Shown one piece after another: positions 25,347-64,000 of a stretch of 64,000 nt of DNA; positions within the stretch are counted from its first letter, which is position 1, and every line of letters starts with the position of its first letter. The stretch covers positions 55,862,386-55,926,385 of the forward strand of contig CM049322.1 of the NCBI GenBank assembly GCA_026874595.1. Direction: 5' to 3'. Origin of the DNA: Sipunculus nudus (lineage: Eukaryota; Annelida; Sipuncula; Golfingiida; Sipunculidae). The position numbers were made by a program, and so were the translations under genes. The notes beneath the pieces are model-generated. The model did no database searches. It was not told where the DNA came from and saw only the letters and a list, made by a program, of their open reading frames with translations.

Positions 25347-25670
25347 TTACCTACATTTTCTTTTGAACTGTTGTTTTGTAATTTTATATTCTTCCAGATA
25401 TAATTTAGTTTTTGAATTTCTGAATTTATTTAATGCTAAATATTTATTCTTTTTCAGGGTTTCACATTGAGTGTCCCACCTAGCTTGTTGTCTTAATAAT
25501 TTTCTTTCTTGTACTGGTTTGGTCATCTGAGCACATGCAGTTAGCAAAATATTTTCTAAAATAGTTACTGCCTGATTTATTTCTTGATGTTTCACTTCAG
25601 AATATGAAATATAATGCTGAAAGTCTACAACAGTTACATTACCTGTCTGATCCAAAACATTCTGGTGCAA
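25347..25670 (-). pseudogene. LINE copy B linker between endonuclease and reverse transcriptase
   Basis: A 107-codon frame matching the second half of the 1872-2408 frame of copy A, with ARWDTQCETLKKNKYLALNK. The SDH end of the endonuclease lies just upstream and is out of frame here. Confidence 0.75.
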
Positions 25671-26138
25671 AAAATGTGCAAGTTCAGGTTTCCAATGGAT
25701 TCTCTGATAAGGGTGCAGGTGCAGTGAGGAGGAAGTACAGTGATGTGTGCTGTTTGGTGCAAGTGAACCTACAACACATAGGAAAATGGCCAGACAAGTG
25801 AAAATTTAGTACTTCAAAATTAGATATACAATGCATAATATCTACAGACAATACCATATTATCAACAATACTAGCTCCATTATAGGATACACAAGTAAAC
25901 TGACCTTCATCATCATTAACAGTTCTACCATTTTATATTTTTTTTAATATGCTGAGATTATTAACTAGGCAAAATCAAGAAACATTCTTCCATACTTATT
26001 GACTATTTTATCTCTAGAACAACGCTCTTTAATGTGATCTTTGTTCAATTGTTAGAAGATCATTAATCATATTTGATTCTACTTTACCAGGATTTATGTA
26101 ATCCTGTATATTCCCAGTTCTAGAATTTAAATCTCCAG

Positions 26139-26534
26139 CTATATATATACATTTACACCGGGGTATTTAACTTTCAATATGTGTAATTTATCTTCTAAAA
26201 TACTGGTACCATCCGTTTGTTCTAAGTATATTGGTGAGCCATCTGGAGATATATATGCAAATATCATAATAATGTCATTATTAATTTCAATAATTTTGCC
26301 ATCCGTCAAGAATACAACCATGTCTTGAAAATGATCATATATGCGATGAACAAATGTACAAAATATATCTTTTACAAATACAAATATGCCACCAGAATAT
26401 CTTCCTTTATCCGCCTTTTTGCGAGTTGTAGAAAAGCATGTGAATCCCATCATCATATCATCAAATTCTGTATCATCTACACCCCAGGTTTCACACAAAC
26501 CAATGATATCATAATTTATCAATAAGTTTTTCAT
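26139..26534 (-). pseudogene. LINE copy B endonuclease, N-terminal half
   Basis: The frame reads YDIIGLCETW, which holds the catalytic glutamate of apurinic-type endonucleases, then YSGGIFVFVKD and IMIFAYISPDG, and ends at VNVYI just before the GDLNA(R) block. Downstream the frame is broken, unlike copy A, where that block is still readable. Confidence 0.87.
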
Positions 26535-26680
26535 TTCATTATTTAGTTGCTTGTATTTAAGTCCTTGACAGTTAAAAGATATATTGTTAAGTTTCTCTCT
26601 GTATTTACAATATTTCTAAGATTATCTATATGAAATGTTTCTTTTGTAGGTGAGGTATCTCTCTTATTCTCAAATTGTGT

Positions 26681-26959
26681 TCAATTGTTCACATATTTTC
26701 CTTGGCCACAGCCAAAACCCAATTCATCATTTATGCGTGACCTCCTCTCATGAAAATCAACAATTGAGTTTGTGTCCTCATCCCACTTATATGTATTACC
26801 ATTAAAAATCAGTTTGTCATGTGACAAGTATGCATTATCTCCAGCACTCCTTGCTTTTTCTAATTCGTTGCCTATGACCTTTCTAATCTGCCTCACTCGA
26901 TCACTGAAATCTTCTGTAAACATAATGTCACTGCCAGATCCCTTCAACTCTTTCCTCAC
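26681..26959 (-). pseudogene. LINE copy B ORF1 C-terminal part
   Basis: A 92-codon frame with MFTEDFSDRVRQIRKVIGNE and KLIFNGNTYKWDED, a typical C-terminal domain of LINE ORF1 proteins. It is shifted relative to 27094-27744. The matching sequence in copy A (about 3230-3480) is broken. Confidence 0.75.
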
Positions 26960-27093
26960 TGCAACCAGAATTTTTTGTTTACATTTGCACTTGCTGAATT
27001 TAACAATTGCTGGTCTAGTTCTGGAACCCAGCTTTGGCCCTATTCTGTGCGCTCTCTCTCTCTCTATTTCAATTTCTTCTGTATTTTCAATTT

Positions 27094-27744
27094 TTAATTT
27101 GCTTTCATCACCTTTCTCACTTTGTTTTCAGACATTTCCCAGGATTCTTTCGAATCTTCAGGTATTCCATGCACTACTAAATTGTTCCTTCTCATTTGAT
27201 CTTCCATCCTGCTCATTTTATTTGCGAGGTTTTTATTTTCTTTAATCAGTGACTTTACCTGCCCCTGTAGCTCTTGTACTTGTTTCTCGAGTCTGGTCAA
27301 AAAACTATCAGTTACTGTGCGGTTTTGTGTTGTATTACCAGTACTACTTGTACTACCAGGGACACTATCCTCGGTATTGCCGGTGTCAGCCATTTGGACG
27401 ATAGGCCTATTATCGCTCAACTGTTCTGTCACCATGTGATCGGGTCCCTGTAAGCTATCACTCGAATTACTTCTCAGCAGACGTGTGTGTTCGAGTAATG
27501 TACTTTGTACGCTGGAACTTTTTGCCTCATTGGTTTGTTTGGGAGGACCCGGGTTCAACTCAACGTCTCCAGACATTGTTAGTAGTATCGTCATGGATAC
27601 ATCAAGACCCAAGGTCAAGGACATACCTGTCAGTGTCATGATCCCTGCTCGAAACTTTTCTTTGGTTCTCGGTTGAGCGTAGCAGCCTATCCTGGCCCTC
27701 CAGACCGTCATGCTTACTCCCATCTCGTGCTTGAGTACCCACAA
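27094..27744 (-). pseudogene. LINE copy B ORF1: 2A motif, coiled coil, RNA-binding start
   Basis: An open frame of 216 codons. A hydrophobic stretch (about residues 35-58) precedes GDVELNPGP at residues 59-67 (27544-27570), where ribosome skipping would release a 66-residue leader. Then comes a Ser/Thr/Asn-rich linker, a coiled coil (FLTRLEKQVQELQGQVKSLI onward, residues about 147-180) and RRNNLVVHGIPED, which resembles the start of the ORF1 RNA-binding fold. ORF1 proteins trimerise through the coil and coat element RNA. The frame is lost at residue 216 and resumes at 26959. Confidence 0.87.
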
Positions 27745-28429
27745 ACATAATGTGTAACTAAATATGACCTACTCTGAATTTTATACAAATCTCAGAATAT
27801 TTTCAGGGTGTCGATGTGAAGCACGTCTTTCACTCACCCCAGCAGGTGGCGCTCCCCCCCCCCCCCCACAAGTATTAGACAACAAAGATGTAATTGGTGT
27901 AAAGTTCACGGTTAAATTCGAGCCACTGATAACATTTTCACCAGTGGTAACAAAATTTGTTTCATAGAACCTTTTGGTCAGGGTATTGTTTTTTGTGTGT
28001 GTATTGCAGAAGAAAAAATACAAATACACTTTAAAACCGACCTGCCACAGGCCCTTGTTAGTAAACAGCCTCATTGGGCGTGTGTTGTTTTGGTAATTAA
28101 TTTACTTATTTAGCTTATATTGACAATTCATAATGTCACCGGATTCATCATTTTCAGAGTATGTTGGAAAGTAAATGACCAAACGGAACCCCCATTATCA
28201 TTAAAAACGATAATTTTAGAGCTAGCAGGCGACGTTTCTACCTTAAAACAAATACAAATCAAGTTTATTAAAAGTCTTATTTCGTCTATACCTTTATTCT
28301 GAATTTATTCTTCATTTGGGAAAATTTCCAACGACAACTTATGAATGGCATAAATCAGTGCGTAATGGATAAAAAATCATCAAAAAAGGAAATATTATAC
28401 ATATTCTTTATTTAATTTTAAATCAATCT

Positions 28430-28660
28430 GACTCTTGGGCCCATGACATCCAAATTCCTAGTATACACTCTGTTAGTACTTATAAAAAACAAGGTATTCC
28501 TACGTATCGGGTACAAGTGTAATAGTATAGTCAACCAGAGAAATGTGTCATCCGTGTATAATATGCATTTAAAAATAACACCTAACTTAATTTTAAGCAT
28601 GACTGCTCCGACCATATTAGGAATCATAGACATAGAAAAGTAAAATGTAAAACCTAATTT
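28430..28660. repeat. Single unit of the 255-bp repeat
   Basis: One unit here matches three tandem units at 53152-53915 in the other duplicated block. The number of units therefore changed after duplication. Confidence 0.8.
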
Positions 28661-31600
28661 TGAAAAAAAGAAATAATTGGTAATCGGTTAGTTACTTTCA
28701 AGATTTCTTGTAAAGAACATTGGATAAATATCACGTAAAGTGCAGGTGGCCAAGAATCCTTTGATTTGCCATACATGTATTATTTTTACATCTACCTTGG
28801 ATACGTATTCTTCAATATCCTGAAATTATCATACTCTCCTTGGAAAATCTATATAACCATGTTGGTCTAAGAGAGTAAAAACAAACAAGCATGCCCTAAA
28901 ATAATCATCCATATTTTTTGTTTTTCTTTTTATGCACGATATGATTACTTCTGGCTCCCACTCAACGTCTTTCTTGTTCCTCAAGCTGTTCGTACGTGGC
29001 GTCCGAATAACTACCAGTAAGGCTTGCAGCTGCAGTCGGGGGGTGCTTTGTAAAACAAGAATAATAACGCACGGGATATGAAATTGTCTGAAAGTAGCAT
29101 TTTTTTTTAATATGAATATTTAATGGCATAAAATTATATATAGCCATATTTTGAAAAATGCGAAAACAAATGTCTCATACTATATTGCCATTTTTAATAT
29201 GAGTATAAAAATGCTTGAGAGTAAATATGGCCACTTCGTGTAGTTGTTCATGTCTTTCTTAATGAAAGTTCAAATCAATCAATATAAGGAATGTGAAAAT
29301 TTTAAGAGCTTTCCTAATATTGAAAAAAAAGACATGTTAAAGCCGTTGATTCATTCAATATGGACAAAATGTGTCAGGGTAATATTTTAATAATTTTTAG
29401 TTCAATATTTTCCTAGTCTTCTCCTGTTGTCTAAGCCAGGCTTTTTGATATACATATTACATATAACACCGTTCAATAAAATGTCAGTTTTAAACAAAAC
29501 TGAATAATAGGCAACAAGAGGGCATTCACAGTTCAGTTTTGTCAATAGCCATTACCGACATTTTCAAAATATTAAATTAATTAAATAACATACCTTGCTC
29601 TGCTTCAGCCGGGCAACCTGAAATATATACATCATGATATAAAATACACACATATATATGTATAAATATGTATGTGTGTGTATATGTGTATGTGTATATA
29701 TATATACATACCCCGTTTTTAGCCCGGTGTTGACAAGGGTAATCATATCCGCTACTATTTGGGAAATACAATTTATACATAGGAAATAAGCTGAGGACTA
29801 AAGTCACTTTCCCTACGTATTCTACCCTCTTTCTATATACAATACGTAATGTCTTTAGATCTTATAAGTATTAAATGATTTTAAGTGGAGTAAGCGTATG
29901 ATAATTGATAGAAGTGAAAACCTTAACATCTAAAATCGAGAATTACAGTGGATTTGTCTTGATCAGTTCAAATTAAATGGTTATGTAAGGATTCTGCAAA
30001 CCATGTCAGATTTTCTCAATAACGGGAGCATCTGGTGTAATAAAGTAAATGGACATAATCAAAATTAAGGCGCACGCCGAGTAATCTAATAGGCGAACAC
30101 GAGTCATGTTTACAAGACAAGCTGATTTATGTGTTTTAATCATGCTGCGTATGATTACCAGCGAAACTCAATCAAGAAGGATGAAGACATTACATGGATA
30201 AAGCTGGCTTTTCCATCTAGTTCGAATAGATAGGAATTGAAAGGGTATGTTAAACGAAAAATGCGGCATAAATGTTTTGGGGAATACAGTAAGTAAATGA
30301 TGGTTTCTCATCAGTTTTGACTTTCATTTAAGACACCTTTAATATATTTTATGCAAATGAATCAACCAAAAGCCCCCTGAAGTTGGGTAGAGCGGATCAC
30401 AAAATAGTATAAATTGTAACTACACATACGTTCATATACATCAGGGCTGTAGGTTACCCCTTGCCACGGACCACCAATGACCTTCAGGTACGCATGCTCG
30501 TCCGCCAGTGAACCTGTTAGGATGAACGGGAACTTGCTCCACAGACGGACATTGCGCATCTTCCGTCAGGTGATTCAACACAGGAAATGCCCAAGAAGTA
30601 ACGGGAGTAGTCAGTGTCCTCAATCACTGTCTGCAAAACTTTTAAACAGTCATACTTCTAAGTTAATAACATTTTATATTTGCTTCAAACGTTCATAGGT
30701 CGCGCATTATGTGTGTAGTAGGCTAAACCACAAAGTATACAAAATTTAACTTGGATTTCCTATGATAATCCGAGGCCTCTCTTTTTAGCTTAACACCGTA
30801 CTGAAATTCAGAATCAAACATATGTACCCAAATGTGGGAGGCACTTTAAGTCCGAAAAATGCAGCGAGAATGAAAGGCAATTTCACAAGAGTCCTATGGT
30901 TTGTAACACATATATAATCGCATTATATAATTGATTCTACATTAGTATTAATATTTAATGCAAGTAAATAGGGAAGGACATTTCTTCATAATACAAACTA
31001 TCCACAAAGTGCATTGAACAACATATTATCTGAATTATTTTGCTCAGGTAAATAAAGAAGAACAAGAATAAACATATTTAGAATTTGCAAAACCATTTGA
31101 CAATAATAATTTTCTATATGCATACGAGATTGAAATAATGCATGAAATATTCAGATGAAAAGTTAATTAAGCTCGAATAATTTCTGACTCAATCGCCATT
31201 CTAGCTTGCAAATTTATTGCCTCAACTCATTTTTATAATAGTTTCAAATACGGCCATTCGCCAAAAAAAAAATGCCCCAAAATGTCTGTCCATGTCAACA
31301 AAGTTCAACAGTACTCTCCGAATGAATATATCTTTTGCCAATGAATTATTCTTATGGAAATCAGCTATGTCCGTTGTTTTAAACTATCAAGAATATCTTG
31401 CGCCTTTGGGCACGGTGTAATTACTGTTTCCGTCTGCCTCATGCTCTGTAACTATTCCACTAACCTGCATGGATAGCCTTCACTTTGGCATTTTCAGGCA
31501 AATACAGCTAATGCTTTGAAGTTTAAAAAAGAAATTGGGAAATAAAATATTTTTTATTCAGCTTTATGATAACATTTATTACTCAAATGCCTTTAAGAGA

Positions 31601-32206
31601 GAATGCGAAACCTACAAACCTTACGCTAGGTGTAGGAGAGACAGAAATAATGCAATGTTAGAGAGACAGGAAAAATATAATGTTAGGGAAACATTTACAA
31701 AAAACATCTGCCAAATAACAAAACGAAAAATGCTGAAAATTGCAGCAAAATATTAGATTTCTGGTATATGGATACAAACAAGCCATTGTTTTATAAAAAT
31801 TTATATATATACACCAAACAATATATTTTTAATAAATACTTTATATTTTCTCGTTAAGATTGATAAAGAAAGACTTACTCAAAAGAATCAGTATAAAAAT
31901 AGTCGCTTCCATTCGTAGAAACATCTCTCGTAATCCCTAACAAATCCTTCACCGGCCTGCCACGAACGCGATAGAACCAGGTACTTAAGTACAAGCGTCC
32001 AAGAACCTTAAAGAAAGTTGGCTAGATATATTCCTCCTACAGGTTAAAGGGATAAAATCTTGTTCATGCTTTGTTTATTTTTGGACCTGTTGCTGGGAAA
32101 TCCGATTTTAGATAATCTTGCCGAAATAAATTAAGTTGCAATGTACACACAACTTTTTTTTTTATTTTACGTGATGGTCATATATGATTAGAAACACCGT
32201 AACGGA

Positions 32207-32211
32207 ATATA

Positions 32212-32276
<65 letters not shown>
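32207..32276. repeat. (AT)n microsatellite
   Basis: Uninterrupted AT alternation of about 70 bases in the pseudogene intron. The right copy lacks it. Confidence 0.95.
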
Positions 32277-32280
<4 letters not shown>

Positions 32281-33324
32281 CCATGAGAGAAGAAAACAAA
32301 AATGCAAGACTTTGCAATTCGTAAATTCTATTGGGATACTGTGTCACCTTGAAACACCCATGTACTCCGTTGATGAAAAATACCTACTGGCTCCGCGTCA
32401 AAGTTGCCCAGGAAAGGTATGCTGTTCATGTGTCGATAGCTCTCTGGAATTAAAGTATTTCACTTGGTAACATCTGTGTCAATAAGGTTCGAATATGCGA
32501 TTAAACGGATAGCAAACCATCGTTCAATCAGTTGTCAGCAAGATCCTGATTTTTTTTAAGGAACAGTCAAACCATGGTATTTACATAATATAATGTCAAA
32601 CCATGATATTAACATATTTTTCTCTGGTGTCATGGTGCTTACGTGAAGAAACTTGTGTATTTAATTAATAATCGGGAACTGGTATAACTTACCTTCAGCC
32701 TTTTCAGCAGGACAATCTGGAATTAACAAGTACACCATACAAAACGTAATGTACCAGCTGTTATTGAGAATCGGTTCTTTCACACACAAAGCTATAGACT
32801 ATATTTGAAATGCCTAATAAATAATGTGAATTTTGTATCAAGAGTTCCTACAGTTTTATTCAAGAGTTAGTAAACAAGATTATATATGTGGCAAAGAGTC
32901 TGAGGAGAGAGTTCAAAGCGTGAGCAATGAATCCACAGAAAAATAAATGCTCTCACTGTTGTAATTTTCTGGCTGGTAGGAGAACGTGTACTGCTGCATA
33001 CAGATACGCTCCAGCTGTCCTCTAGCCAGGGCATACGCGTCCTCAGACAGTTCTATGGTTCTGCTCCAAACGTGAACCAGTGCCGCCCGACATTTGCCAT
33101 CCTCAACGTCAGTACACTAGTAGTCAATGGAGTAAGTGTGTTAGTTAGTAAAGATCGTCAAGATGTCCCCACTCAAAGGAAAAGTTAATGTTTTAAGCAA
33201 AATATTCGTGAAACCGAGACGGTTGTAAATTAGTTTGACAGTGATCGTGACCTGCCTTACTCAAATACAATCTTCAAAAACATCAATCTACTAAGGAAGC
33301 ACCACCTAAATAATAACGACATTA

Positions 33325-34490
33325 CTTAACAAAAATACATGGTCACCCAAATCTGTATACAGTCCCCACACCTTACTAAACATAAATCCATCGTCATTCA
33401 AATCTGTATACAGTCCTCACACCTTACTAAACATAAATCCATCGTCGTTCAAATCTGTATACAGTCCCCACACCTTACTAAGCAAAAATACATGGTCACT
33501 TAATATGTATACATTCCCCACACCTTACTAAACATAAATCCATCGTCGTTCAAATCTGTATACATTCCCCACACCTTACTAAACATAAATCCATCTTCGT
33601 TCAAATCTGTATATAGTCCCCACACCTTACTAAACATAAATCCATCGTCGTTCAAATCTGTATACAATCCCCATACCTTACAGAGCAAAAATACATGGTC
33701 ACTTAATATGTATACATTCCCCACACCTTACTAATCATAAATCCATCGTCGTTCAAATCTGTATACAGTCCCCACACCTTACTAAGCAAAAATACATGGT
33801 CACTTAATATGTATACATTCCCCACACCTTACTTAACATAAATCCATCGTCGTTCAAATCTGTATACAGTCCCCACACCTTACTAAGCAAAAATACATGG
33901 TCGCTTAAAAGGTATACATTTCCCACACCTTACTAAACATAAATCCATCGTCGTTCAAATTTGTATACAGTCCCCACACCATACTAAGCAAAAATACATG
34001 GTCACTTAATATGTATACATTCCCCACACCTTACTAAACATAAATCCATCGTCGTTCAAATCTGTATACAGTCCCCACACCTTACTAAGCAAAAATACAT
34101 GGTCACTTAATAGGTATACATTCCTCACACCTTACTAAACATAAATCCATCGTCGTTCAAATCTGTATACAGTCTTCACACCTTACTAAGCAAAAATACA
34201 TGGTCACTTAATAGGTATACATTCCTCACACCTTACTAAACATAAATCCATCGTCGTTCAAATCTTTGTACAGTCCCCACACCTTACCAAGCAAAAATAC
34301 ATGGTCACTTAATATGTATACATTCCCCACACCTTACTTAACATAAATCCATCGTCATTCAAATCTGTATACAGTCCCCATACCTTACTAAGCAAAAATA
34401 CATGGTCACTTAATAGGTATACATTCCTCACACCTTACTAAACATAAATCCATCGTCGTTCAAATCTGTATACAGTCCCCATACCTTACT
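33325..34490. repeat. Satellite with 101-bp higher-order dimer
   Basis: About 23 monomers of 50-51 bases. Two monomer types alternate: one with CATAAATCCATCGTCGTTCA and one with AAAATACATGGTCACTTAAT, both ending CCCCACACCTTACT. It lies in the intron between exons 5 and 4 of the dead lipocalin-like gene. The matching intron of the right copy has no array. Confidence 0.95.
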
Positions 34491-34493
34491 CTA

Positions 34494-36166
34494 CTCCGTT
34501 CCACGAACCATGGTCCACATCATTTTTCCATTTATTTTGTTACAAACTCAATTTCAGGCTTCAGTGTTGCAAGAACCAACAGATGTGAGAAACCGCCTAA
34601 TTTATTTCCCATAAATTATTGATGAAATGAAATAATATTACCTATCGACGCTGAACCACTGAACCTTGTCATGTGGCAACCATAGCGGGAGAGTTGGTAT
34701 GACATCATAGAGGCTCGACTGTGCCAAAAGACAACTCGGAAGAGGGTGTCAGGTCCTTGCTCAGGGTGCCTGGAGGGTGCGCTGCGACCTCTTTGGTCAG
34801 GAATGTTAATAGGGTTTTGCCTCTATGATGTCAGATGTGGCTAACTTTATAGACTACAGTTCAGAATAGTGTTAATGAGAGGGTGTGCTCCATTTCTGAG
34901 ATACAGTCAAGCCCACTTTGAGTCATAGGCCTATCAGTGAATGGAAAATCCCTTCTATTGACTTTATCACATAAACTGAAATCCCAAACTATTTCATTTA
35001 ATTATACAACGGTACGTAAATCTGACCGTTTAATATCATGGAATATTGTTATAATCATGTTTAATCAGGTGTATCAAAAAAATATAAGACTACAGATAAG
35101 GACAACAGATGCGGTGGGTGTGCGATGCGGTGTGTGTCAATTAGAGACGTTTTAAGTGTGTTTTTTTAGGAATAATATAATAAAATAAAAATGTATTATA
35201 AATATATATTATGTATAAGATATGGATATATATATAATGAATAATATAACAAAATCAAATATATTACAAGTAAAAATCATGTATTTGATATAGGATGAAT
35301 ACAAGAAGAGTTGAATGGTAAAACATTAATAAAATGGTTCCAGGCGATGTCCATGGTGTTCAATAAATACAGAATATATTATACTTTTTTTTCTTAATTT
35401 TATAGATGCATCTGATTTGAACAAAAATAATTGTGATACAATTCATGAAAAATACAGAAAATATATATTAAATGTCTCATTAAATGTCTCTATGTACAAT
35501 TAAATTTAACGTAAATAAACATATTGATTACAAAACTGAGTTTTTAGTGAATGGGCTTATATAGATTCTGCTTTTAAAACATGCCTGGTTAAAATATTGT
35601 ATAGGCCTACAACAGAGGCAACTTCTCACAAACGTCCCTCGGCACCGGAGGAAAGTTGGGCGTATGTAGCCTTGTTTCAGTGAACATGGCCCATACAAAC
35701 ATAGTCAAACATTCATTATATTTATTATCTGCTCTCTGTCATCTTATCAGTCATACATTTATTAATCTCCTAATTAAATTTACATACTTAACTGGTTTAT
35801 ACATGTGTAGATCTTTCCTAATTTACGATCAACACGGTCAACAACACGATATGTCACCAAAGCCTAGGAACAAAATAAACCATTTCACCCCTTCTGGTAA
35901 AATGGACTCTCCGAACCAATCCAGGCACTGTCCTTAACCCCTTGTTCACAAGCGCCTCTCGCAGAAACTGTCGCAAAGTTTGTTGACTGATTCTAACATT
36001 TCAGAACAAAATCGATTGTGAAAACAACATGCAAGGTACATTTTTATATTATGATTGACAATTAGGTGGATGTTTCTTCTACCCCATTTTGTAACATTTG
36101 TTATGATATCTAACTTCCCTTTTTTCCCTTGCAAAAAACGGCTGGACCATGGGTCGTGGAATGGAG
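34494..36166. mobile_element. Non-autonomous TIR element splitting the satellite
   Basis: Terminal inverted repeats of 24 bases (34494-34517 and 36143-36166) differ at two positions; each contains CCATGGTCCA. TA dinucleotides sit at or within two bases of both ends, and satellite sequence continues on both sides, so this looks like an insertion into the array. No transposase frame is present. A second hairpin (34701-34832) is nested inside. Confidence 0.72.
34701..34832. repeat. Nested inverted repeat, 14-bp arms
   Basis: GACATCATAGAGGC (34701-34714) and its exact reverse complement GCCTCTATGATGTC (34819-34832) enclose a 104-base loop that is GC-richer than its surroundings. It may be a small element inserted in the larger TIR element. 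Confidence 0.6.
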
Positions 36167-37060
36167 AATAAACATAAATACATGGTCACACAAATCTGTA
36201 TACAGTCCCAACATCTTACTAAACATAAATCCATGGTCATTCAAATCTGTATACAGTCCCCACATCTTTCTAATCATAAATACATTGTCACTCAAATCTG
36301 TATACAGTGCCCACATCTGACTTAATATAAATACATTATCCCTCAAATCTGTAAACAGTCTCCACACCTTACTAATCATAAATACATGGTCCCTCTAATC
36401 TGTATACAGTCACCACACCTTACTAAACATAATAAATGGTCCCTCAAATCTGTATACAGTCCCAACAGCTTACCAATAATAAATATATGGTTCCTCAAAT
36501 CTGCATACAGTTCCCACACATTGCTAAACATAAATAAATGGGCAATCAAATTTCAATACGGTCCCAACACCTTACTCAACATTATTCCATGTTCAATCAA
36601 ATCTGTGAACAGTACCCACACCTTACTAAGCATAAATACATGGCAAATCAAATCTGTATACAGTCTTCTAACCTTACTAAACATAAATACATGGTCACTC
36701 GTATCTGTATACAGTCCCCACACCTTACTAAGCATAAATCCATGGTCATTCAAATCTGTATACAGTCCCCACATCTTTCTAATCATGAATTCATTGTCAC
36801 TCAAATCTGTATACAGTCCCCACACATTACATAACATAAATCCATGGTCAATCAAATTTCAATACAGTCCCCACACCTTACTAAACATTAATACCTGATT
36901 AATCAAATTTCAATGCAGTCCCCAAACCTAACTTAACATAAATCCATGGTCAATCACATCTGTGTACAGTCTCCACACCTTACTAATCATAAATCCAAGG
37001 TCACTCAAATCTGTACACAGTTCCCACACCTTACTAAACATAAATACATGGTCATATATG
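36167..37060. repeat. Satellite, second block, divergent monomers
   Basis: About 17 monomers of the same 50-51-base satellite, more varied and without the alternating dimer order of the first block. Periodic frames such as SKVWGLYTDL in both blocks are by-products of the unit length, not genes. Confidence 0.93.
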
Positions 37061-39249
37061 CAGATGTGTTATGTGAGACGTATGTACATAAAAATATGTT
37101 GCTGCATGCACGTTTTTTAAACGATTGTAAAGATAACTTCGGCTTTCCTTTTGTATTGCATATTTCCTCTTATTTTATAAACTCAACCGAACAACACAGC
37201 ACGCATAATGTTTTGTCAATGTGATTTAGCATAAATTTCAGCTGATGTATATGTTGCTCTACCTTTTCGTCCATCAACATACAGCGAGGACCAACCCTGT
37301 GTGTTTAGGCGGACCTGCATCACTTCTTCGTTACCACATTTGCCTTCTGAGTCACTGTTAAATTGAAGATAAGGATATTCTATCAATTTAGTCAGTTCGG
37401 AGATCTGACATTTTGATCATTGTCATCTGAATGAATTCAGTCATATCTGACTGCAAAGGTTTCCAGATGTGCAGATTTAACGAGTTGACCAGACAAATTT
37501 TACTCAGGTGTTAAATGTCAGAAAAACAAAAGTAATTCTGGTGTATTAAATATTTAATTGGACATGAATGGGTTAGCCCTTCATGAAATTTATTTTGCGT
37601 TTTCCATCAGATGATTAAGATGGTATCAACTTTTGCATTTCTAGAGCATTTAAATATAGTTTTCATCCCAACTGACCATAGGTCATCTGCGCTATATTAA
37701 CCTTTATCCGTAACCTTTCTTTAAGAAAAACCCACAATGTTTACTCAAAGGACACGTCCCAGCAGAAGGCAGTTATGCCGTGTTTCTTGCCGCCGTATGG
37801 TATATATAATTTTACCTTACTAATAAAACAGTCGTCTGTGATATTCTCTCTCCTCTTCATCAGTGCTGCCCAGATTTCTTCATTCAGGTATAAATGAATG
37901 TACTTTTTATAGCTACAGGTAATATATATAAAGTTTAGTGTGATATTTATTGCCAATGGTTCAATCTGCTGATGTTTTGATGCAGCTATATACGTGATAT
38001 GCATTTTTTTAAAGTCAATTGCGTCTTACTAATAGCTGGATGCCTTTAGCGCGGTGTATATATATAAGCTCATATAAGTAAGATGTCCCACACCAGCTTT
38101 AACATTCACACCCATACACACCACGATTATCATTAAGGTATGGGACTTACCGGACTGTTTTAATAAATCATACCTATGTTAAGGAGGAAAGTCAGACACA
38201 AGGAAATTTGGACAGTTAAAAGTTGTCTCGGTTTATTCCATAAACTATTATTTTATTTACCTGTTACGTTTTGTATTTGAATTATACATTTTGGGTATTG
38301 AATTATAATTTTTATATATTTGTATCACCAATGTCATCACACAAAAGAAAGGAAAAAACAAAACAAAAAAGAAAACCAAATTAAGATCGGTTTCACAGTG
38401 TACATGTATGCCTTGGCGGGCCATATATTCAATATTATAATATACTTTGAGGTCGACAGGTCCCCTTGTGCTAGCGAGAGGTCAGCTTAAGAGTTAGTTG
38501 TCTGCAATGGCCAGGATAGCTGTAGTTGAATATATATTTGTATATGTATGTGGATGTAGATAGACATATATTTATATATAATCTATTTTTATGTATCAAT
38601 GTATAAAGTGTATCAATTTATTGGGATATTTATGTATGTTGATTCATATATCAAATCTCTATTTTTTCTCGCATATATTTCACTTTTAATGCATGTACAT
38701 TGCTATCAGTCTGCAATAAAAAAAACAATGTGTGTGTGTTCGTGTGTGTGTACAGCTTTATCTATGCATTTTATTTATATACAAATTCTCACCTTTTCAT
38801 TTATTCTATTATCCATGGTTGGTTGGTCATCCCAACGGCAACCGGTGTTTAAGAACATTCCCAAGAGAGGCTACGACAACTACAACACCGAACAGCATGG
38901 TACTTCCCATAGCCTTTCTCATGTCGAACTGCTGAGGGTCCTGCCTACAGCCTGCTTTCTTTCCTGGTTTTCAGCTCTCAGCTTCACTAGCAAGCTTGTG
39001 CTCTAAAAAGCTTCAGTTGGAGACTGGCTCTGTGCCAGAATTGCACAGGACGGTAGATTTCTATACATCTTTGGAGACCTAAATTGTTTGCATGTCAAGC
39101 GTATCTTATGTGGCAAAAAACAATTGACCTTTGTTTGGAGATTCCTGCACAGGAACATAATATATCATATGACACAATGGCTGTTTGATGTTGTATGATA
39201 TAAATTGATGATGAACTCTCTGCTCCAGGGCACTAGACTTTTAGGTTTG

Positions 39250-43845: not shown

Positions 43846-43851
43846 CTAAAG

Positions 43852-45681
43852 TACGGTGGCTGATTTAGGACATAGAAAAAAAAAATATTTATCTCGAGAT
43901 CTCGAGATAACATCTCGAGTTCTCGACATAGAATTTCGCAACAAAAAAAATTTTAGGAAGCAAAAAAAAAAAAAAAATTTTAGGAAGCAAAAAAAAAATT
44001 TTTAGGAAGCAAAAAAAAAAAATTTTAGAAAGCAAAAAAAAAAAAAATTTTAGGAAGCAAAAAAAAAATTTTATCTTTCGAGATCTCCAGAAAAAATGTC
44101 ACACTTGTACCAACCATTCGAAGCTGAATTGACATAAAACAAAGCAACCTTATGGGGACAGTATACGTTAAGAGTGCTTACTATTGCAATTATAAAACAA
44201 AGACCATGTATACTGTGTTTAACTGAACGGTAATACAATATAATTAATTTAAAATCAATTAAATTTGTATATCCTCTGAGATAAGGCGGGTTGAAGAAAA
44301 GTTCAATATAAATTCAATTTTTAATATTCATATCCGTAAGGAAGATGTCAAAGCCTAAAGAATCTGAAACATTCTACCTGAACGGCGGATTCGGAGCCAT
44401 GTCTGTTAAATCACTCAAATAGAAAGGTTTAGGTCTGCATGCATGCATTGTGGGTACCTTATTATTTTAAGAATACAAACAAATATGAGCTTCTTATAGA
44501 AACACGCTTTTTGTACAATTTCTTTCAGCTTTTGTTTTATTGAAATGGTGTGTCGTTTTATGGAACATGTATTAGACCATCATAAATTAAAATATGCTAA
44601 AACTGATTGCTGTGTTTTCGGGTAGATACGCTGGGGGGGGGGGGGGGGTCGGGGAGGGGCGTTGCTTCAGCCCCTTAAGCCCAAGTCTTGATCCACTATA
44701 GCTCTTACTATAGCTCAGATTAATTTAATCGACCTATCTTCATAAATGTTTTATATTCATAAATACACGGTTTAAAATTTCGATCATCTCTCATCATGAT
44801 TTTTCTTCAGCAAAATGCTCTGCTTTGGTCTTGAAGTCGCTATTCACCTGCCTTATTTATAGAATCTTTGTAATACAGGCTAACTCTGCATATACATATT
44901 AAAGAAGTGAAAGTAATCATAAACATAATCTAGGTAAACATAATCTATTAATCTTTCATAAAAATGAGCCAATGCCATGGGTAAAGGCGGTGTCTTTGTC
45001 TATATCCACGTTTTTTTATAACATGGGTCGGGAGGGGGGGGTGCAAAAATTGCCACCGATCGTAATAGAAAGACGTCCGGCAGAAACATCTGGCTTCAAT
45101 TCAGAGATTACAGATTTCTGTAAATGACAAATACTGCATTGCTTGACATGCATTAACGAATATCAACTAGTGATCTTTCAATAACTCGGTTACATGTTTT
45201 TATCTGTATGTTAACACTTGCTCAAGTGGCTTGTATACAAGTAGCCTTTAGATAAAATGTTTATACGTCAAAGTGACGTTATAAGACCCATTCCCAGCTG
45301 GGGTTTCTTCCTAAATTTTTTTTATTTGCTTCTTAATTTTTTTTTTTTGCTTCCTAAAATTTTTTTTTGGCTTCCTAAAAATTTTTTTTTTTGCTTCATA
45401 AAATTTTTTTTTATGCTTCCTAAATTTTTTTTTGCTTCCTAAAATTTTTATTTTTGCTTCCTAAAAATTTTTTTTTTTGCTTCATAAAATTTTATTTTAT
45501 GCTTCCTAAATTTTTTTTTTTTTGCTTCCTAAAATTTTTTTTTCTTTTTGCTTCCTAAAAATTTTTTTTTTGCTTCCTAAAATTTTTTTTTTTGCGAAAT
45601 TCTATGTCGAGATCTCGAGATGTTATCTCGAGATCACGAGATAAATATTTTTTTTTTCTGTGTCCTAAATCAGCCACCGTA
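43852..45681. mobile_element. Foldback-type TIR element with tandem-repeat arms
   Basis: Both ends read TACGGTGGCTGATTTAGGAC in inverted orientation and are flanked by a 6-bp direct duplication CTAAAG (43846-43851 and 45682-45687). Each arm then has an XhoI-rich palindrome (left copy 43889-43910), the block ATAGAATTTCGC, and an array of TTTTAGGAAGC plus poly(A) units (left arm to about 44075, right arm from about 45300). The inner 1.2 kb has no transposase. A 6-bp duplication with TA-starting ends would fit few superfamilies; I do not assign one. Confidence 0.9.
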
Positions 45682-45687
45682 CTAAAG

Positions 45688-54245: not shown

Positions 54246-57200
54246 CTACCAGTCCCAGTAGGGCTTGCAGCCGCATCCAAGGGATGCTTTGTAAAAGAAG
54301 AATAATAACGTACGGGATATAAAATTGGTAGTGTGTTCAGCCGTTTCATTTTTCCATATGGGATATTAGATTGCATAAAAGTATATATTGCCATCCCCGA
54401 GAGTATATCTGGTCATTATTTTCAGATAGGATATAACAATGATTTAAACTATATATGCCCATTCCTTGTGATTGTTTAAGACGTTCTTATTGAAAACTCC
54501 AATCAATCAATCAATCAATATAGGAAATATGACATTGTTTCCAAGCTTCCCTTACTTTTTAATAATAACACAATTTGAAGACATTGATTCATACAATATG
54601 GACTAAAAGGTGTTAATAGCCATTACAGACATATTTTATTGGGCAAGAGAATGAGCGAAATTCAAAATATTATATTAAAAAACATACCTTGCTCTGCTTC
54701 AGCTGGGCAACCTGAAAAATAAACCTCATGATATTACACACACTCCCTAATATTAATATATATATAGTTTTATGTGTGTTTGTTTCCGCACAGCTGAGAA
54801 CTTCAATCACTTTCCCTACGCATTCTACCCTGACGATATTTATTTATTTCTTTTTGTATACAATATTTAATGTCTTTAGTTCAGGTTAGTATTAAAAGGA
54901 TTAAAAGTGGAGTCTGTATATGATAATTGATTTAAGTAAATAGCTGAACATCTAAAATCCAAGTTCTCAGTGGGTTTGCCTAGAAATGTTCAAAAGATAT
55001 GTAATGATTTTCCAAGCTGCCGTCGAGGACACAGATTTTGAGTATACATTTTTATATGTTATGCAAGGTTTCTCAATAACCGAGGCATACGGTGTTATAA
55101 AATTAACAGAAATCGGGCAATACATGAAAATAAAGGTGCACGCATGGTATTCTAATCGGCGACAAACGGGTCATGTGTTCAACCAAGCTGATAGATGTGT
55201 TTTTACCATGTTACAGAGGATTACAAGGGAAACTCGATCAAGAAGAATAAAGACATGGATAACATGGATAAAGATGTTTTTTAACCGAATACTTAAGAAA
55301 TGATACGCCATGTGAAACGAGCAAATGCGGCATGCATGTTTCGGGAAATACAGTAGATTAGTTTCTCATCAGTTTTGGCTTCCGTTAAAGACGCACTTTA
55401 AAAGTATATTATGCAAATGAATCATCACAGAACTTTTTTCAATTCGTGAGAGCGGGGCATAACATAGTATAAATGGTGACAACACTTACGTTCATATACA
55501 TCAGGGCTGTAGGCAACAGCTTTCCACGAACCACCAATGACCTTTAGGTACGCATGCGCGTCCGCAAGTGAATTTGACGGGATGAACGGGAATCTGCTCC
55601 ACAGACGGACAATTTGTATTGCGCATCCGCCGTCAGGTGATTCAACACAGGAAAACCCCAAGAAGTAACGGGAATAGTCAGTGTCCACAATCACTGTCTT
55701 CAGAACTTTTAAAAAATCATACTTGTAAATGAATAATATACCGAATCTGTTTCAAGAGTTCATAGGTCGCACATAACGTTTGGAGTAGACTAAACCATAA
55801 AAGTATATACAATTTAACTTGTTTTTTCCATGATCAGCCGAGGGTTCTCGTTGTACTTATACACCGTACTGATATTTAGAATCAAACATAGACACGGGAA
55901 TGTGGGAGGCATTTTATAGCCGGAAAAAATCGTGAGCATGAAATATTAGGTAATTACCCAAGGGTACCTTGGTTCGTAACACATATATACTTGCATTATG
56001 AATTTGATTCTACATTAGTAAGAATACTTTATGCGCGAAAATAGGAAAGGCATTTATTCATAATACAAACTATCTACGAGGTTCAGTTAGCAACATATCT
56101 TCTTAATTATTGTTCTTGGAAAAATAAAAAATAAAAACAAGAATAAAGATATTTTAAATTTGCAAATCAATTTGAAATAGATGATTATTTTCATTATGCA
56201 ATTGACATTGAAATAATGCATGAAATTTTCTAAAATTCATATACTAAATCAATTAAGTTCTAAAGCAATTAAACGCATTACTAACTTCAACATTTATCCT
56301 TTGTCCTGGCTGGTAATGATTTCCTTTATATTTTCAATTAAAGTTTTAAAAACGGCCATTTACAAAATAACATGCCCCCAACAGGTCGGTACATATCAAT
56401 TCACGAAATTTGAAATTCACAAAAAAATGACGTTCTATAGTACTCACCGCAGGAATATATTGCTAATGAAGGCTTCCTACGGAAATCCGCCTTGTTTGTC
56501 GTTTTTAACAACCAAGAAATATCTTGCGTCTATAGGCACGATGTACTTACTGTTTCCGTGGGCCTCATGCTGTGTCAGTATTCCACTATCTGGCATGACT
56601 GTTACCTCTCCTATAGGCATTTTCATGCACTCACAGTTAATGCTATGAATTCAAAAAGGAATTGTTATATAAAATATTTTCTTTCATTCAGCTTTATTAT
56701 AACATATACTTCTAAAAAGCCTTTAAGGGAGAATGCGAGAGATACCTAGAACCTTACGCTTTGTGTATCAGAGAGGGAAACAATGGAATGTTAGAGAAAC
56801 ATAAGCAACAAATCTTCCATATATCAAATACTCAAAATTTCCCTTGCGGCAAAATATCATGTGATTTCTACGATTTCTGGTCTTTGCATAAGACATTGCT
56901 TTATAAATATATAAATAATAAAAAAGATAATGTTAAAAAATATGCTATTTGTTTTCCCGTAAATCCAATTTTAAATATTTAATGGCTAGGAAAATATACT
57001 TACTCAACATAATCAGTATGAAAATAGTTGCTTCCATTCGTAGAAAAATGCATCGTAAACCCTAATAAATCCTTCACCGGCATGCAACGAAGGCCATAGA
57101 ACCACGTCTTTAAGTACCAGCGTCCTAGAAGCTAAGAGAAAGAAACCATTTAAATATACACACAATTTGCCAAATACCATATTATATTCCTCTTATAGGT

Positions 57201-60200
57201 AAACGGGGAAAATTCTGCGTCATTTATTCTTTGTTTATTTTCAGGCCCGGTGCTTGGAAATAACATTTCAATCTGAGATAAACTTGCCCAAATAAAGCAA
57301 GTTGCAATGTGTACACAACTTTTTTACGTGATGGTCATATAGAATTAGAAACACCGTTTGCTGAGGTCGTCAGCACCGAACATATTCTGGCAACTACTAA
57401 ATACTACAAACAAATAATCCAAGATTTTCAAAACATACTTAGACAATTGGCATTCCTGGTGAACCACATATACTGAAACAAATCTCTACATAGGTACATC
57501 GTTGCTCGGACATATCCCGATTACGGAAATGTATGGGCTGCCAGAGTTCTTCTATTGGACCACTGTGTTACCTTAAGCGACAGGTATATTTCGTTGAAGA
57601 AAATACCTACTCGCTCCATGTCAAAGTTGCTCAGGAAAGGTATGCTGTTCATGCGCCGATGGCTCTCTGGAGTTAGAGTTTTCTTCACATTGTATCATCT
57701 TTGTCAATAAGGTGCGAATATGTCATTTAATTTATAGCTAAACAACAATCACTCATTCAGTAATCAGCAAGTTGCTGAGGTATTGAAGGATTAATCAAAT
57801 CATGGTATTTACATAACTATCTGATACACAGTCACATGATTCCTCAAATATATTTTTTTCTCGGATAATGTTATCTTGTGCAAACGGTGGTACATTTGTT
57901 CACAACGGTGGCACATTTCCTTAATTGTACATGGTGCTCGTGTAAAGATACGTGTGTGTTTAAATAGTTATCGGAAAAGTTATAACTTACCACCAGCCTT
58001 TTCAACCGGACAGTCTGGAATTTACAAGTACGACATAAAAAATCAATGTAAAAGCTGTTATTTGAAATCGGTGCTTTCAGAAACAAGGCTATAGAATACA
58101 TTTGTTCCAGCTTATATATAACGTGCCACTTTTATTAACGTTCTTCCAGCAACATTTCTATTTATGAGGTAGTAATCAAGAACAGATATCTGCCAATGAC
58201 TCTGAGGAAAGAGTTAAAAAGCGTGAGCAATGAATCCAAAGAAAAATAAATGCGCTCACTGTTGTAATTTTCTGGCTGGTAAGAGTATGTGTACTCCGGC
58301 AGACAGACACGCTCCAGCTGCTCTCTAGCAAGGGCATACACGTCCTCAGGCAGTTCTTTGGTTCTGCTCCAAATGTGAACCAGTGAAGCCAGACATATGC
58401 CATCAACAACGTCAGTACAGTAGTAGTCAATGGAGTAAGTGTGGTAGTTGGTAAAAATTGTCAAGATGTCCGCCACTCAAAGAGAATATTTAATGTTTTA
58501 AGCAATCATTTGCTAAACCTGGAGAGTTATAAATTATACAGTGATCATGACATTCAATGTACAAAAACAACCTGTAGTTGTAAATCCTGAGCATGTACCA
58601 CTCAAATAATAACTACAACATTTAAGATACATATACATATACATATATGTACAATAAAATAAATATACAGTCATCACAGTTCGGACTCATCTTTACCAAT
58701 TGTTTGTATTTTGTTATACCAATGCCCTGTTTTTAGTTAAAAAAATACATTTATTAAATGTACCCTTTGCCCGCTTATCTTATTTTCTCTTATGTTTTAT
58801 AATACGTAGATGTATTTTATCACATGTATGTATGAAAATAATGTTGCTGAATGCATATGCTTATAACGATTGTTATAATAGGTTCTGCACATGTTATATT
58901 GTATATTTCCTCTTCTTTTTTTTAATTTAACCAAACTACACGAAATAGCATCGTCCTGTTTAACATCGTATTCTAGTATATATCCGCAATCATTAAAATT
59001 CTGAAATGAATATACAATTGTATCTCCACTCCAAACTCTAATAATAAAACATTCCAGTACAAACCTGACGACCTGAACATTTACAATGAAAAATCCAGCC
59101 ATACAATAAGCATAATCTACAGGTATGTGTCACGTAGAAGTGTTACCATTCTTCGATTCTCCTATTCTCGAATTGAAAAGCAACAATTCCAAGAAACCGT
59201 TTAATAGTCAACTAATATAAAAAATGCAATTGAAGAGGCGGTTTATTTTTCATCATTTTTTATGCTTGATAGCAACGGCATGGTAAACTTCAACAGAGAT
59301 GAGCAAAGTCTTCTTATCGTATCTTATCTTATCGTAAGATACTTATCTTTACGAGAGGTAATTTATCGTTACAACTCTTTCTGTAGTTTTTTTATTAGAT
59401 CAGATTACACCAAAATTCATACGAGATCGGGGTTTCCTATGTGACTCTAGATTAAACAGTGATCGTGATGCCGTTCTTCAGCGGAGGGTTGTGCAGTAGT
59501 CCAAGCTGAGCGGGGCCAAGATATGTACAATAATTTCTATATCCGGTGAGTGTCTGTTACTTTCTTTGGTAACAGGCATAAAATATCTTTTTTTGGTTTA
59601 ATCTGGACTCACTCTTTGTCATGCATTAGGTTCAGAGGGGACAATGTTTATTTTAAAAAGTATGTTAACATAACAAAATATATCAATGTTTTAATAAGAT
59701 GCAATTTACTTTTTCCCGCACAGGTTGCAGGTGTAAGAAATGGAAGGTCAACTGTCAAAATTAGACAAAAAACTATTGTGTTCTAGAAAAGATTACAAAG
59801 ATATCAAATTCATGTTAATTTGTTGTTTATTTCTGCTTCCTGATGCAATGAGATTTTGCGTAAATTTTAACTGATATTTATGCTGCCCTACCTTTTCGTC
59901 CATCAACATACAGCGAGGGCCAACCTTGGGTGTTCACGCGGAGCTGCATTTCTCTGTCATTACTACATTTACCTTCTGAGTCACTGTTAAATTGAAGATA
60001 AGGATTTTCTATCAAAATAAACCTTTCGGGGATCTGACGTTTTGATCATGGTCATCTGGATGAATTTCTTTTCTGATTGCAATGGTTTCCAGATGTGTAG
60101 CTTAAACGAGTGGACCAGACCAAATTTAATCTGGTGTTAAATGTCTTAAAAACCAAAAATATTCTGGTGTAGAAACCATTTTTATTTAACAGGAATGGTT

Positions 60201-63200
60201 AAGCCCTTCATAAAATTTAGTTTTATTTTTCCTTCAGATGTTTAAGACGATTACAAGTCTTGAATTTCTAGAGCATTTTAATATAGTTTTCAGCTAAACT
60301 GACCATAGGTCTCCTGCGCTATAGCAATTAACCTTTGTCTGTCATCTGTACCTTTTTCTTTTCAGAAAACTCACAATGTTTACTCAAATGACATGAACAT
60401 GAAATGACAGCAGACGACAGTTACGTGTAGTGCTCATGCTCGCTGAAAATATCTGCAAACTTACAGGTGTGTTATATGGATAAAAATCGTTCCGTTCTCT
60501 CGAGTAACCTCCGTGAAGGTTCCGCTGCGTTGTTCACCTTTGGTGCTGCTGACCATGTGTATCAAATACCAACGACCAAGTATCTAAAAGGTATATATAT
60601 GTGGTCAACCCCTTAACGTTTATTATTTTGGCATTTAGCACTACAGATAATACAACTTTAAGATTAGATTTTCTATATTATCTGATATATGTCAATAATA
60701 CAGGAAAAGCGCCAAGTTGTTTAAGTTATATGTTGGCACTTCTTGCCCGATTGTTATGTCCATGTAAACAAAGGCTAATTAATATAAACATATTCTTGTA
60801 GGGCTGACAGACATATGTTAGTACTGAAATAACATGCCTTGTGATCGCAAAGCTTAGGAGTGCAGGTAGCTTAGTTTAAAGAAAATAAATGAAAGGTTGT
60901 ATAAGATGAGAACAATAATAATATATAAATTTCAAATGTTTCCCTAACAGTGAATATCATTCATATATCAGCAAACAGTAAAGCTTATTCCGATGAAGAG
61001 CGTGGGGCTGGTGACTGGAGAAATTCAATGTGGTGCAATGTACATTAAGCAAATTACTTCTTGGTCTTAAATACCTCAAAGGTATATAACGCGAAATATA
61101 GTGTTGGTTTTATAAAAAAAATAAATAGCATTTTTAATAAATATAGCTTTAAATGAAGCTTTATGTGATACTCTCTGAGGAGACGGACATTATAAGCAAA
61201 AAGAAAAAAAGAAAACAAATTCATGTGAACACATTTTATGCGAATATCATTTCCCTAAATTGTCTGCTAGTTAAAAAAAAATGCAGTAAGAGGTTTATGC
61301 TCTGTGGAGAATTTTTTTCAACCAATTTTTGTACATAAGGTCGTCATACCTGGTGTGTAATGTTGTCAAATCTGGATTAACAACAAAGCCGTGTTTCTCG
61401 CCGTATATATGGTATATATATAATTTTACCTTACTGATAAAACATGTCTCCTCTAAATGAGTGCGGGTCCAGATTGCTTCATCCAGGTATAAATGAATGG
61501 TCGTTTTATAGCTACAGGTAATATTTAAAGAGTTTAGTGTAATATTTATTGTCAAAACGTTAAGGATCAGTTCACTTGGAATGAATTATTCAATGTGGTA
61601 ATAATTTATGTAGCTATATACATCATATTATTATTATATTATATGCAATTAATATATTAATATTCATTTCAGTTAATTGCGTCTTACTCATAGCTGGACG
61701 CCTTTAGCGTTGTGCATAAATTAGCTCATGTAAGTAAGGTGTCCCGAATCAGCTCCAACATAAACACCCTTTGATTATCAATTGAAGGTATGTGGACTTA
61801 CTACACTGTTGTAATAAATAAAACCTATGTTATCGAGGAACGTCAGACACCAGACAATCAGGACAGTAAGGTTTGCTTGGTTTATTCCATATACTGTGCT
61901 TTATTTATCTGTTATATATTCTACATTTGAATCATAAATTTTAAATATTGACTTTTATATATTTGCATTAATAATTTAAGGTGAAATTAAACTGTCAAAG
62001 TCAAGTCGTCACACTAACTTTAACAACAAATAACTAAAAAAGGAAACCAACTAAAAAACGGTCTCACAGTATAGCTGTATGTCTTGCAGGAAACATATTT
62101 AATATAATATTATTTTTTTGTAGGTTGACTTGTCCCCTGGTGCTAGCGAGAGGTCAGCTTTAAAATTTATTATCTGAAATGGACGAGATAGCCGTCCTTG
62201 TATATGTTTCAGTCAATGTGTAAAATTAGTCAATTTGCAAATTGCCTGAAATTTTCAGTCAATTTACAAATTACCTGATTCACACAGTACACAGTACACA
62301 CAGTACAGTACTGAAATTATCAGGCATTTTACACATTGACTGAAAAATCAGTTTGTTTATTTGACGCTTGACTGAAGTGCAAAAATAATGAAATATTATT
62401 TCTTTAGGTTACAAAGATTAAAATGACAGTTCATTTATTTCATTTTATCTTACTCTTGCAAACTATTAAACCATTTTGGATCATATTATTCATATTATTG
62501 AACAATTTTATAATTTATTTGATCAGAAGCACCCATCTGGCTTGATTATAGTTCTTGCAGAAATAATTATTACATCATATGAGATGTAAATAATATATTA
62601 TCTCAGGGGCACAATATCCTAATGCACTGTTGGGAGCAGTATAGGTTGGATGACCCCCTCCCTCAATGCGGAAAAATTGTCACAAATTTCTTTCAAAATT
62701 TCAGCAATTTTGTAGCACATTTGGTGTAAAATAACTGGGGATATTCTCGCTTCAGAAACCCAAACATATTCAATTGTTTGACATAAAAAAACACTTAAGG
62801 CAGCAAAAATCCCCTGAGAACAAAATTTGTCCATTATTTTAATTTAAATATTTTGGGGTGATTAATATGGTATGCCCACTTAGCCCCCCCCCCCCCCCCC
62901 ACCAAATTTCACTTCTGTACTGTCTGACTAACAGTTGACAATTGAACACTACCAGCCATTTTCTTTTGCCTCTAATGAAAGATTTTGGATGGCAAACTCA
63001 TTAAAAGTAATAAATACAGTTGGTATAATTGTTGTTTACCTCTACCCTTTGTAACTCACCTAAGCATATATATCTTAATCATATATTTGATATTAACAAC
63101 CATGTAACTGTGGGTATCCTTTAAACATTCAAAAATCTACATCATTCATTTCACTAATTATTGCACATTTAAATGTTTTAATGTGTTATTTGACAAAAAG

Positions 63201-64000
63201 CTTCCATTTGATTTGCTTCCTATTCTCACATAAGCAAAATGTTACCATATGAGTTGGGAAATATTGTATGAATATTTTGTTATGATAGTCTGCTTATGTT
63301 AACTATATGAATCTTGTTATACCATTCACCTATCTGTGTATTTTTGTCTTATTACATGATTACTATCCTTTATAAATAGTCTAGATAGAAAAAAAAAAGC
63401 CACAAAGTTTACTTTAAAGTAGCTGGTTACACTTAATGACAATGTCTGTTTTACATAGTGAGATATATGAAACAACAGACTATTCCACATTGATTCAGTC
63501 AATTAGTCAAATTAACAGACTGATTCTTCATTACAATTTCGGTCATATTACAAAGTGCCTGAGTGGATCAGGCAATTTGTAAACTGAGTGATAATTAAGG
63601 TAATTTAAAAATTGACTGATTTTACACATTGACTGTAACATATGGTTGTAGAGATATGCATATATTTGTATTATATCTTTTTATGTATACTTGTATAAAG
63701 TGTATCAATATATTAGGTTATTTATGTGTATGTATATTGATTAATATATCGTATCTATATTTTTTCTTGCATATATATTGCACTTTCAATGCATTTACAT
63801 GGACTATGAGTCTGCAAAAAACAATTTGTGTGCGTCTATGTAAAGCTCTATTTATGAATTTTATTTATAAACTGGTTCCTACCTTTTCATACATTGTATC
63901 ATCCATGGTAGGTTGATCACCCAGACGGCAACTTGTGTCTGTAAGGACATAGCCAAGAGAGGCTACGACAAGTACAGCACCGAAAAACATGGTGCTTCCC
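54246..64000 (-). CDS. Secreted protein with two tandem lipocalin-like domains, 12 exons
   Basis: Exons: 63883-64000 (partial), 61802-61824, 61350-61511, 59892-59983, 58260-58475, 57991-58014, 57611-57666, 57004-57131, 56551-56642, 55490-55693, 54688-54711, 54246-54286. All introns are GT-AG and all phases agree, giving 389 codons from the ATG at 63990. The dead copy suggests the true start lies 24 bases further upstream, outside the window. A signal peptide (MFFGAVLVVASLGYVL) begins it. Domain 1 has NYHTYSIDYYC and HIWSR with a following helix. Domain 2 has NFDMERLLGRWYLKTWFYG (the lipocalin G-x-W motif), VDTDYSRYFLGFSC and RLWSR. Each domain ends in a 24-nt micro-exon (CPVEKAG, CPAEAEQ). 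The tail is GCGCKPYWDW. Lipocalins bind small hydrophobic ligands in a barrel; the ligand here is unknown. Domain 1 lacks G-x-W. Confidence 0.8.
62206..63639. mobile_element. TIR element inserted in the right gene copy only
   Basis: Ends read GTTTCAGTCAATGTGTAAAA and, inverted, GTTACAGTCAATGTGTAAAA, with similarity extending about 80 bases inward. It is flanked by ATAT (62202-62205 and 63640-63643). The left duplicated block has a single TTGTATATG at the corresponding position (near 38540), i.e. an empty site. A third inverted copy of the end lies inside at about 62324-62343, so the left 138 bases resemble a complete small element by themselves. A 71-codon minus-strand frame (62619-62834) has no recognised domain. 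It sits in intron 1 of the lipocalin-like gene. Confidence 0.85.

Follow-up and report, generated by a model that had tools for sequence, protein, structure and literature searches.

The window analyzed here is a stretch of 64,000 nt of Sipunculus nudus contig CM049322.1, and all positions below are given in window numbering. Its minus strand carries, at 63990–54246, a predicted lipocalin gene, gene A, and at about 28.3–38.9 kb a decayed duplicate of this gene, copy B (table 1). Gene A consists of 11 exons separated by 10 introns, each of which has GT-AG ends, and its donors (n = 10) match the consensus GTRAGT at 4–6 of 6 positions. The spliced sequence of 1116 nt reads as a single open frame without break, giving 371 residues (protein A) and a stop codon. 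This model is predicted from DNA alone, with exon ends set by the reading frame, the splice sites and the comparison with copy B. Because the start codon is only 10 nt inside the window edge, the promoter and any further upstream exon are beyond view; the outer extent of the duplication that produced copy B is likewise beyond view, gene A reaching the window end.

Table 1. Predicted exons of gene A, and its duplicate, in window numbering
Feature	Positions	Strand	Length (nt)	Phase	Content	Relation to copy B
Exon 1	63883..63990	-	108		Start codon, hydrophobic leader, mature domain 1 N-terminus with first Cys	87/106 compared bases identical
Exon 2	60465..60583	-	119	0 to 2	Domain 1 G-x-W, ILGRWYL	Counterpart absent (0 aligned bases)
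Exon 3	59892..59983	-	92	2 to 1	Domain 1	78/92 identical
Exon 4	58260..58475	-	216	1 to 1	Domain 1, YSIDYYC and HIWSR; RBP4-like stretch	
Exon 5	57991..58014	-	24	1 to 1	Micro-exon; CPVEKAG, domain 1 end	AG and GT retained
Exon 6	57611..57666	-	56	1 to 0	Domain 2 N-terminal segment, SNFDMER; weak match to RBP N-terminus (3.5 bits)	49/56 identical
Exon 7	57004..57131	-	128	0 to 2	Domain 2 G-x-W, LLGRWYL	
Exon 8	56551..56642	-	92	2 to 1	Domain 2	
Exon 9	55490..55705	-	216	1 to 1	Domain 2, YFLGFSC and RLWSR	
Exon 10	54688..54711	-	24	1 to 1	Micro-exon; CPAEAEQ, domain 2 end	23/24 identical
Exon 11	54246..54286	-	41		Short tail with Cys, stop codon	
Copy B	28289..38908	-			Decayed duplicate of gene A, located by blastn within the window	Same strand as gene A

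This anatomy departs from the original prediction at several points. Twelve exons had been proposed, one of them of 23 nt; we found 11 in the spliced frame. In the interval from exon 5 to exon 7, the sole AG-23-GT stretch runs into a stop, and the 56-nt exon 6 fits there instead, joining in frame (57666–57611; translation ESHRRMNSIPFLSNFDMER), although the position of the 23-nt exon had been left unstated and another place for it is possible. Domain 1 had also been thought to have lost its G-x-W motif, but exon 2 (60583–60465, phase 0 to 2) encodes ILGRWYLIHM, and it is copy B that is without this exon. On the other hand, the domain 1 run of 92 (phase 2 to 1), 216 (1 to 1) and 24 nt (1 to 1) was recovered in the spliced frame exactly as proposed. 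For domain 2, lengths of 92, 204 and 24 nt with identical phases had been given; the 92, the 24 and the phases are those we read, whereas for the central exon we prefer 216 nt (first base 55705), because in this form it aligns without gaps to its domain 1 partner. The 204-nt form is possible through an AG located 12 nt further in.

Two copies of a non-LTR-like element, 94.7% identical over 4482 columns and with ORFs on the minus strand, occupy positions 1–4457 and 23495–27921. They contain an endonuclease-like stretch (PF03372, E-value 1.9e-4, 21.7 bits, under the cut-off of 24.5), and an upstream ORF of each copy encodes a 2A-like motif, GDVELNPGP; the presence of motifs of this type in non-LTR elements has been described before (excerpts of PMC4981915). 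A reverse-transcriptase ORF of 307 residues (18580–19503, minus strand; PF00078, E-value 1.1e-15) lies outside both copies. At 43850–45683 are inverted arms (∼220 nt, 89% alike), in and beside which lie tandem repeats, A-rich and T-rich, with units of 22–45 nt; the whole may represent a foldback or MITE-type element. The third intron of copy B contains tandem arrays whose units measure 101 and 51 nt (33322–34490 and 36169–37054), ∼80% mutually alike. Intron 1 contains similar open stretches in the two copies (61298–61585 in A, 37741–38025 in B); the one in gene A was rejected as an exon, the surrounding block being 68.8% identical to copy B, no better than intron. Searches of the whole window for tRNA-type genes (ARAGORN) and Rfam families (gathering threshold) found nothing.

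Protein A as a Probable Two-Domain Lipocalin

By using a combination of family models and similarity searches, we obtained matches to lipocalins for the whole protein and for each of its halves. Protein A as a whole matches the Pfam Lipocalin model (PF00061) with an E-value of 3.3e-6 and a score of 27.8 bits, above the cut-off of 23; residues 39–157, in domain 1, form the best-matching stretch. Taken singly, domain 1 scores 21.6 bits, under the cut-off of 23, and no Pfam family was found for domain 2, even at E-values up to 10, so that the lipocalin assignment made in the original prediction passes the Pfam check for the spliced protein but not for either domain on its own. Among sequences of solved structures, phmmer returned 21 matches to the whole protein (E-values up to 10), with RBP4 the best (1e-4) and 20 of the 21 lipocalins by name, the other being Tub (0.62). 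Domain 1 alone gave 22 matches, led by LCN15 (6.3e-4), of which 19 are lipocalins and three are other proteins at E-values of 0.21–1.6. Domain 2 alone gave 21, lipocalins by name, the best being RBP (0.0032) and crustacyanin A2 (0.0046). A profile built from both domains (D1+D2) had 91 matches in the same set (E-values up to 1), including LCN15 (4.2e-6) and RBP (1.1e-5), and the best 60 of these 91 are all lipocalins by name. Domain 2 is thus assigned to the lipocalins because of its similarity to domain 1, its own phmmer matches and those of the profile. When viral contigs were scanned with the two-domain profile, 128 pattern matches were obtained, none of which was confirmed by tblastn.

Lipocalins share as hallmarks a G-x-W motif, a T-D-Y motif and a conserved arginine near the last strand. 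LGRWYL is present in both domains of protein A and is invariant in their alignment, the T-D-Y position reads TDY in domain 2 and TNY in domain 1, and the conserved arginine is found in both as WSR. The three motif pairs listed in the original prediction (YSIDYYC with YFLGFSC, HIWSR with RLWSR, CPVEKAG with CPAEAEQ) all coincide in the same alignment, and an N-G-S/T sequon shares one of its columns (NGT at 66 in domain 1, NGS at 237 in domain 2). The two domains are 24% identical (blastp E-value 4e-15), and their alignment score is 23 SD above those of 2,000 shuffles of domain 2. The repetition extends to the exons: the run 92–216–24 is present twice with the same phases (2 to 1, 1 to 1, 1 to 1), and each run is preceded by an LGRWYL-bearing exon of phase 0 to 2. 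When the 11 exon lengths were shuffled 20,000 times, two identical three-exon runs appeared in 0.265% of the shuffles.

Protein A contains 14 cysteines, which we compared with those of RBP, where one of the disulfides is the Cys4–Cys160 bond. In the phmmer alignments, Cys126, 134, and 164 of domain 1 sit on RBP cysteines. With the D1+D2 profile, Cys21 falls on an RBP cysteine within a very weak stretch (∼1 bit), and Cys82 on a cysteine of LCN15, its counterpart not being seen against RBP; Cys180, encoded by micro-exon 5, would come near RBP Cys174 when the alignment end is extrapolated. Each of the six RBP cysteines would then have its equivalent in domain 1 (21, 82, 126, 134, 164, and 180), the last of them in micro-exon 5. 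Domain 2 would have four (253, 298, 306, and 352), both Cys4–Cys160 partners being missing; the columns aligned to this pair hold His and Gly. Since both partners are absent, one disulfide would be lost from domain 2 as a pair, which makes a clear structural prediction. The extra cysteines are 221 and 251 in domain 2 and 363 and 365 in the tail. The CPxE segments had been described as linkers, and a two-barrel secreted lipocalin bearing them as unusual. From the cysteine alignment to RBP, we infer that they are not mere linkers: they probably supply the C-terminal cysteine of each barrel, and would serve to close it. “Unusual” remains apt for lipocalins overall, yet there are printed precedents in polycalin, tick proteins, Svf1 and AimA.

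A Decayed Copy and the Probable Constraint on Gene A

Copy B has no exon 2, positions 37754 and 37777 of B flanking a gap opposite 60393–61388 of A. Its versions of exons 1, 4, and 9 have frameshifting gaps of 2, 1, and 7 nt, respectively, and further gaps of 3 nt and 6 nt are found in exons 8 and 11; read in the codon register of gene A, exon 4 contains two stops and exon 8 a third. Because of the absent exon, the three frameshifting gaps and the three stops, copy B is, judged on its sequence, a pseudogene. The segment holding gene A would have been duplicated later than the domains themselves, after which copy B would have decayed.

The two copies are identical at 835 of 978 compared exon bases (85.4%, exon 2 being absent) and at 3568 of 4510 compared intron bases (79.1%), the latter figure being overstated because only 4884 of 8629 intron bases could be aligned. 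Identity differs little between codon positions 1, 2, and 3 (84, 88, and 84%), which fits a drifting copy B, yet is weak evidence for gene A. Over 318 codons, dN is 0.136 and dS 0.263, a dN/dS of 0.52 (500 bootstraps, 0.36–0.74, 0.2% at or above 1), with 0.40 for domain 1 and 0.64 for domain 2; intron pseudo-codon controls gave 0.93, 0.73, and 0.91, the value of 0.73 lying just within the upper bound for exons. In neutral simulations (1,500 each at 8, 10, and 12% change per site), the frame of gene A stayed stop-free in 3.1, 0.8, and 0.4% of cases, respectively. Taken together, the intact frame, the dN/dS and the simulations favor a functional gene A.

Alternative Readings of the Locus

Gene A might itself have died recently and kept its frame by chance, as the death of its sister copy and the weak position-wise constraint between A and B would allow. 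However, it has 371 codons without stop or frame break and GT-AG at all ten introns, its dN/dS is below 1, and a frame such as this survives in at most 3.1% of the neutral simulations, all of which makes recent death very improbable. The exons might also belong to two single-domain lipocalin genes placed head to tail, the join between exons 5 and 6 being a reading artefact. Indeed, when the exon 5 donor is read through, a stop follows after three codons (57982–57980), where domain 1 could end, and the frame opened by an ATG at 58101 shows moderate hydrophobicity (1.45) and contains GTs in a phase suited to joining exon 6. That ATG is absent from copy B, which is of limited weight as copy B is a pseudogene, but exon 5 ends, and exon 6 starts, in the same phase, and the AG and GT of both exons are retained in copy B. 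Moreover, in a search for an internal leader between 58260 and 57004, the 18 listed ATG frames with 12 codons or more reached a hydropathy of at most 2.30, as compared with a maximum mean of 2.56 over an 11-residue span in the leader of exon 1; the only ones above 2, at 57180 and 57037, enter exon 7 or sit inside it in another frame. We therefore consider two separate genes unlikely. The stop beyond exon 5 also allows for a gene with two products, the spliced two-barrel protein and a single-barrel lipocalin made by retention of intron 5, with micro-exon 5 as an isoform switch. The retained form would be a complete single-barrel product because the stop comes three codons on, when the last domain 1 cysteine is already present. 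This stop is not retained in copy B, and intron 5 has a poly(A)-like hexamer (57731) that gives the switch no support because such hexamers are common on the minus strand (∼1.1 per 324 nt); we hold the switch to be a long shot.

Gene A is thus best read as one intact gene with two domains, and the question of how the second domain was gained has two answers that leave the two-barrel reading untouched. The original prediction was that an ancestral single-domain gene was duplicated internally. A two-domain repeat is what the exon run, the similarity of the domains, the Pfam match and the profile all point to; these results do not separate the internal route from one in which two neighboring tandem genes fused and the leader and tail exons then lying inside were lost. 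Because equal phases may be found in any two lipocalin domains through shared intron positions, the exon run speaks for repetition and not for the route. In favor of fusion, exon 6 gives 19 residues ahead of the G-x-W exon, and exon 1 is equally long past its leader of ∼17 residues (the end of the leader being estimated); in addition, duplication of a whole gene has occurred at this very locus, as copy B attests. Against it, no relic of a leader was recognized between exons 4 and 7, although with domains as diverged as these (24% identity) its survival would not be expected. We give fusion an even chance. What is supported, from the sequence of the repeat, is that the present unit came about either through internal duplication or through the joining of neighboring copies, two routes that would leave the same trace, and that this happened long ago, as the 24% identity suggests.

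Overall, gene A very probably encodes a functional, secreted lipocalin of 371 residues with two domains. Each domain would fold into a barrel of its own, and the protein may serve as an extracellular carrier of small hydrophobic ligands, with each barrel holding one or, as modeled for Svf1, a single ligand lying between the two. With ligand bound in both barrels, protein A would amount to a naturally occurring carrier with two pockets. At this locus the predicted anatomy of a two-barrel lipocalin gene is complete and, with a dead sister copy nearby, the exon model can be checked.

Comparison with Known Lipocalins

RBP4 is the best or a near-best match of protein A among solved structures, the alignment including the segment YxxxYxC..DG.C and some of the cysteine pattern. 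It has a single domain whereas protein A has two, and the best RBP E-values (1.1e-5 to 0.0032) leave retinol binding unsupported. In the literature searched, outside which most subscription journals lie, we found no paper on the protein encoded by gene A. An expansion of apolipoprotein D-like genes is described for a sea slug (excerpts of PMC8079154), with no link to gene A shown, and the portions consulted of PMC4532494 and PMC8530192 held neither mollusc nor intron-phase data.

Lipocalins with several domains are already known. According to excerpts of the reports concerned, the polycalin of Lepidoptera has 15 lipocalin-like structures and exons numbered up to 49 (PMC10145054), and polycalin in moths is also covered elsewhere (PMC4985599). 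Like protein A, it joins tandem lipocalin-like domains in one polypeptide encoded by many exons; it has ∼15 domains (PMC10145054) as against two, and the likeness is one of description. Closer in number are the tick salivary proteins with two lipocalin domains recorded in TickSialoFam 2.0 (PMC9779611, in part), again likened by description; no tick lipocalin was recognized among the best 60 of the 91 matches of the D1+D2 profile. The yeast protein Svf1 also has two lipocalin domains, with ceramide modeled between both (excerpts of PMC10583516). It resembles protein A by description, but it is intracellular, acting at the ER–Golgi interface, whereas protein A has a hydrophobic leader. Finally, AimA of Aeromonas is secreted and consists of two related lipocalin-like domains with 17% mutual identity, joined by a short linker, and has no homologues outside Aeromonas, as stated in the consulted part of its description (PMC6219842). 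The listed matches of whole protein A, domain 1, domain 2 and the D1+D2 profile do not include its entry, 6B7L. AimA and protein A nevertheless share the same plan, two related lipocalin-like domains in one chain that is known to be secreted in the former and predicted to be so in the latter. Gene A does not overturn the known picture of lipocalins and most likely represents a modest variant within an established class of proteins.
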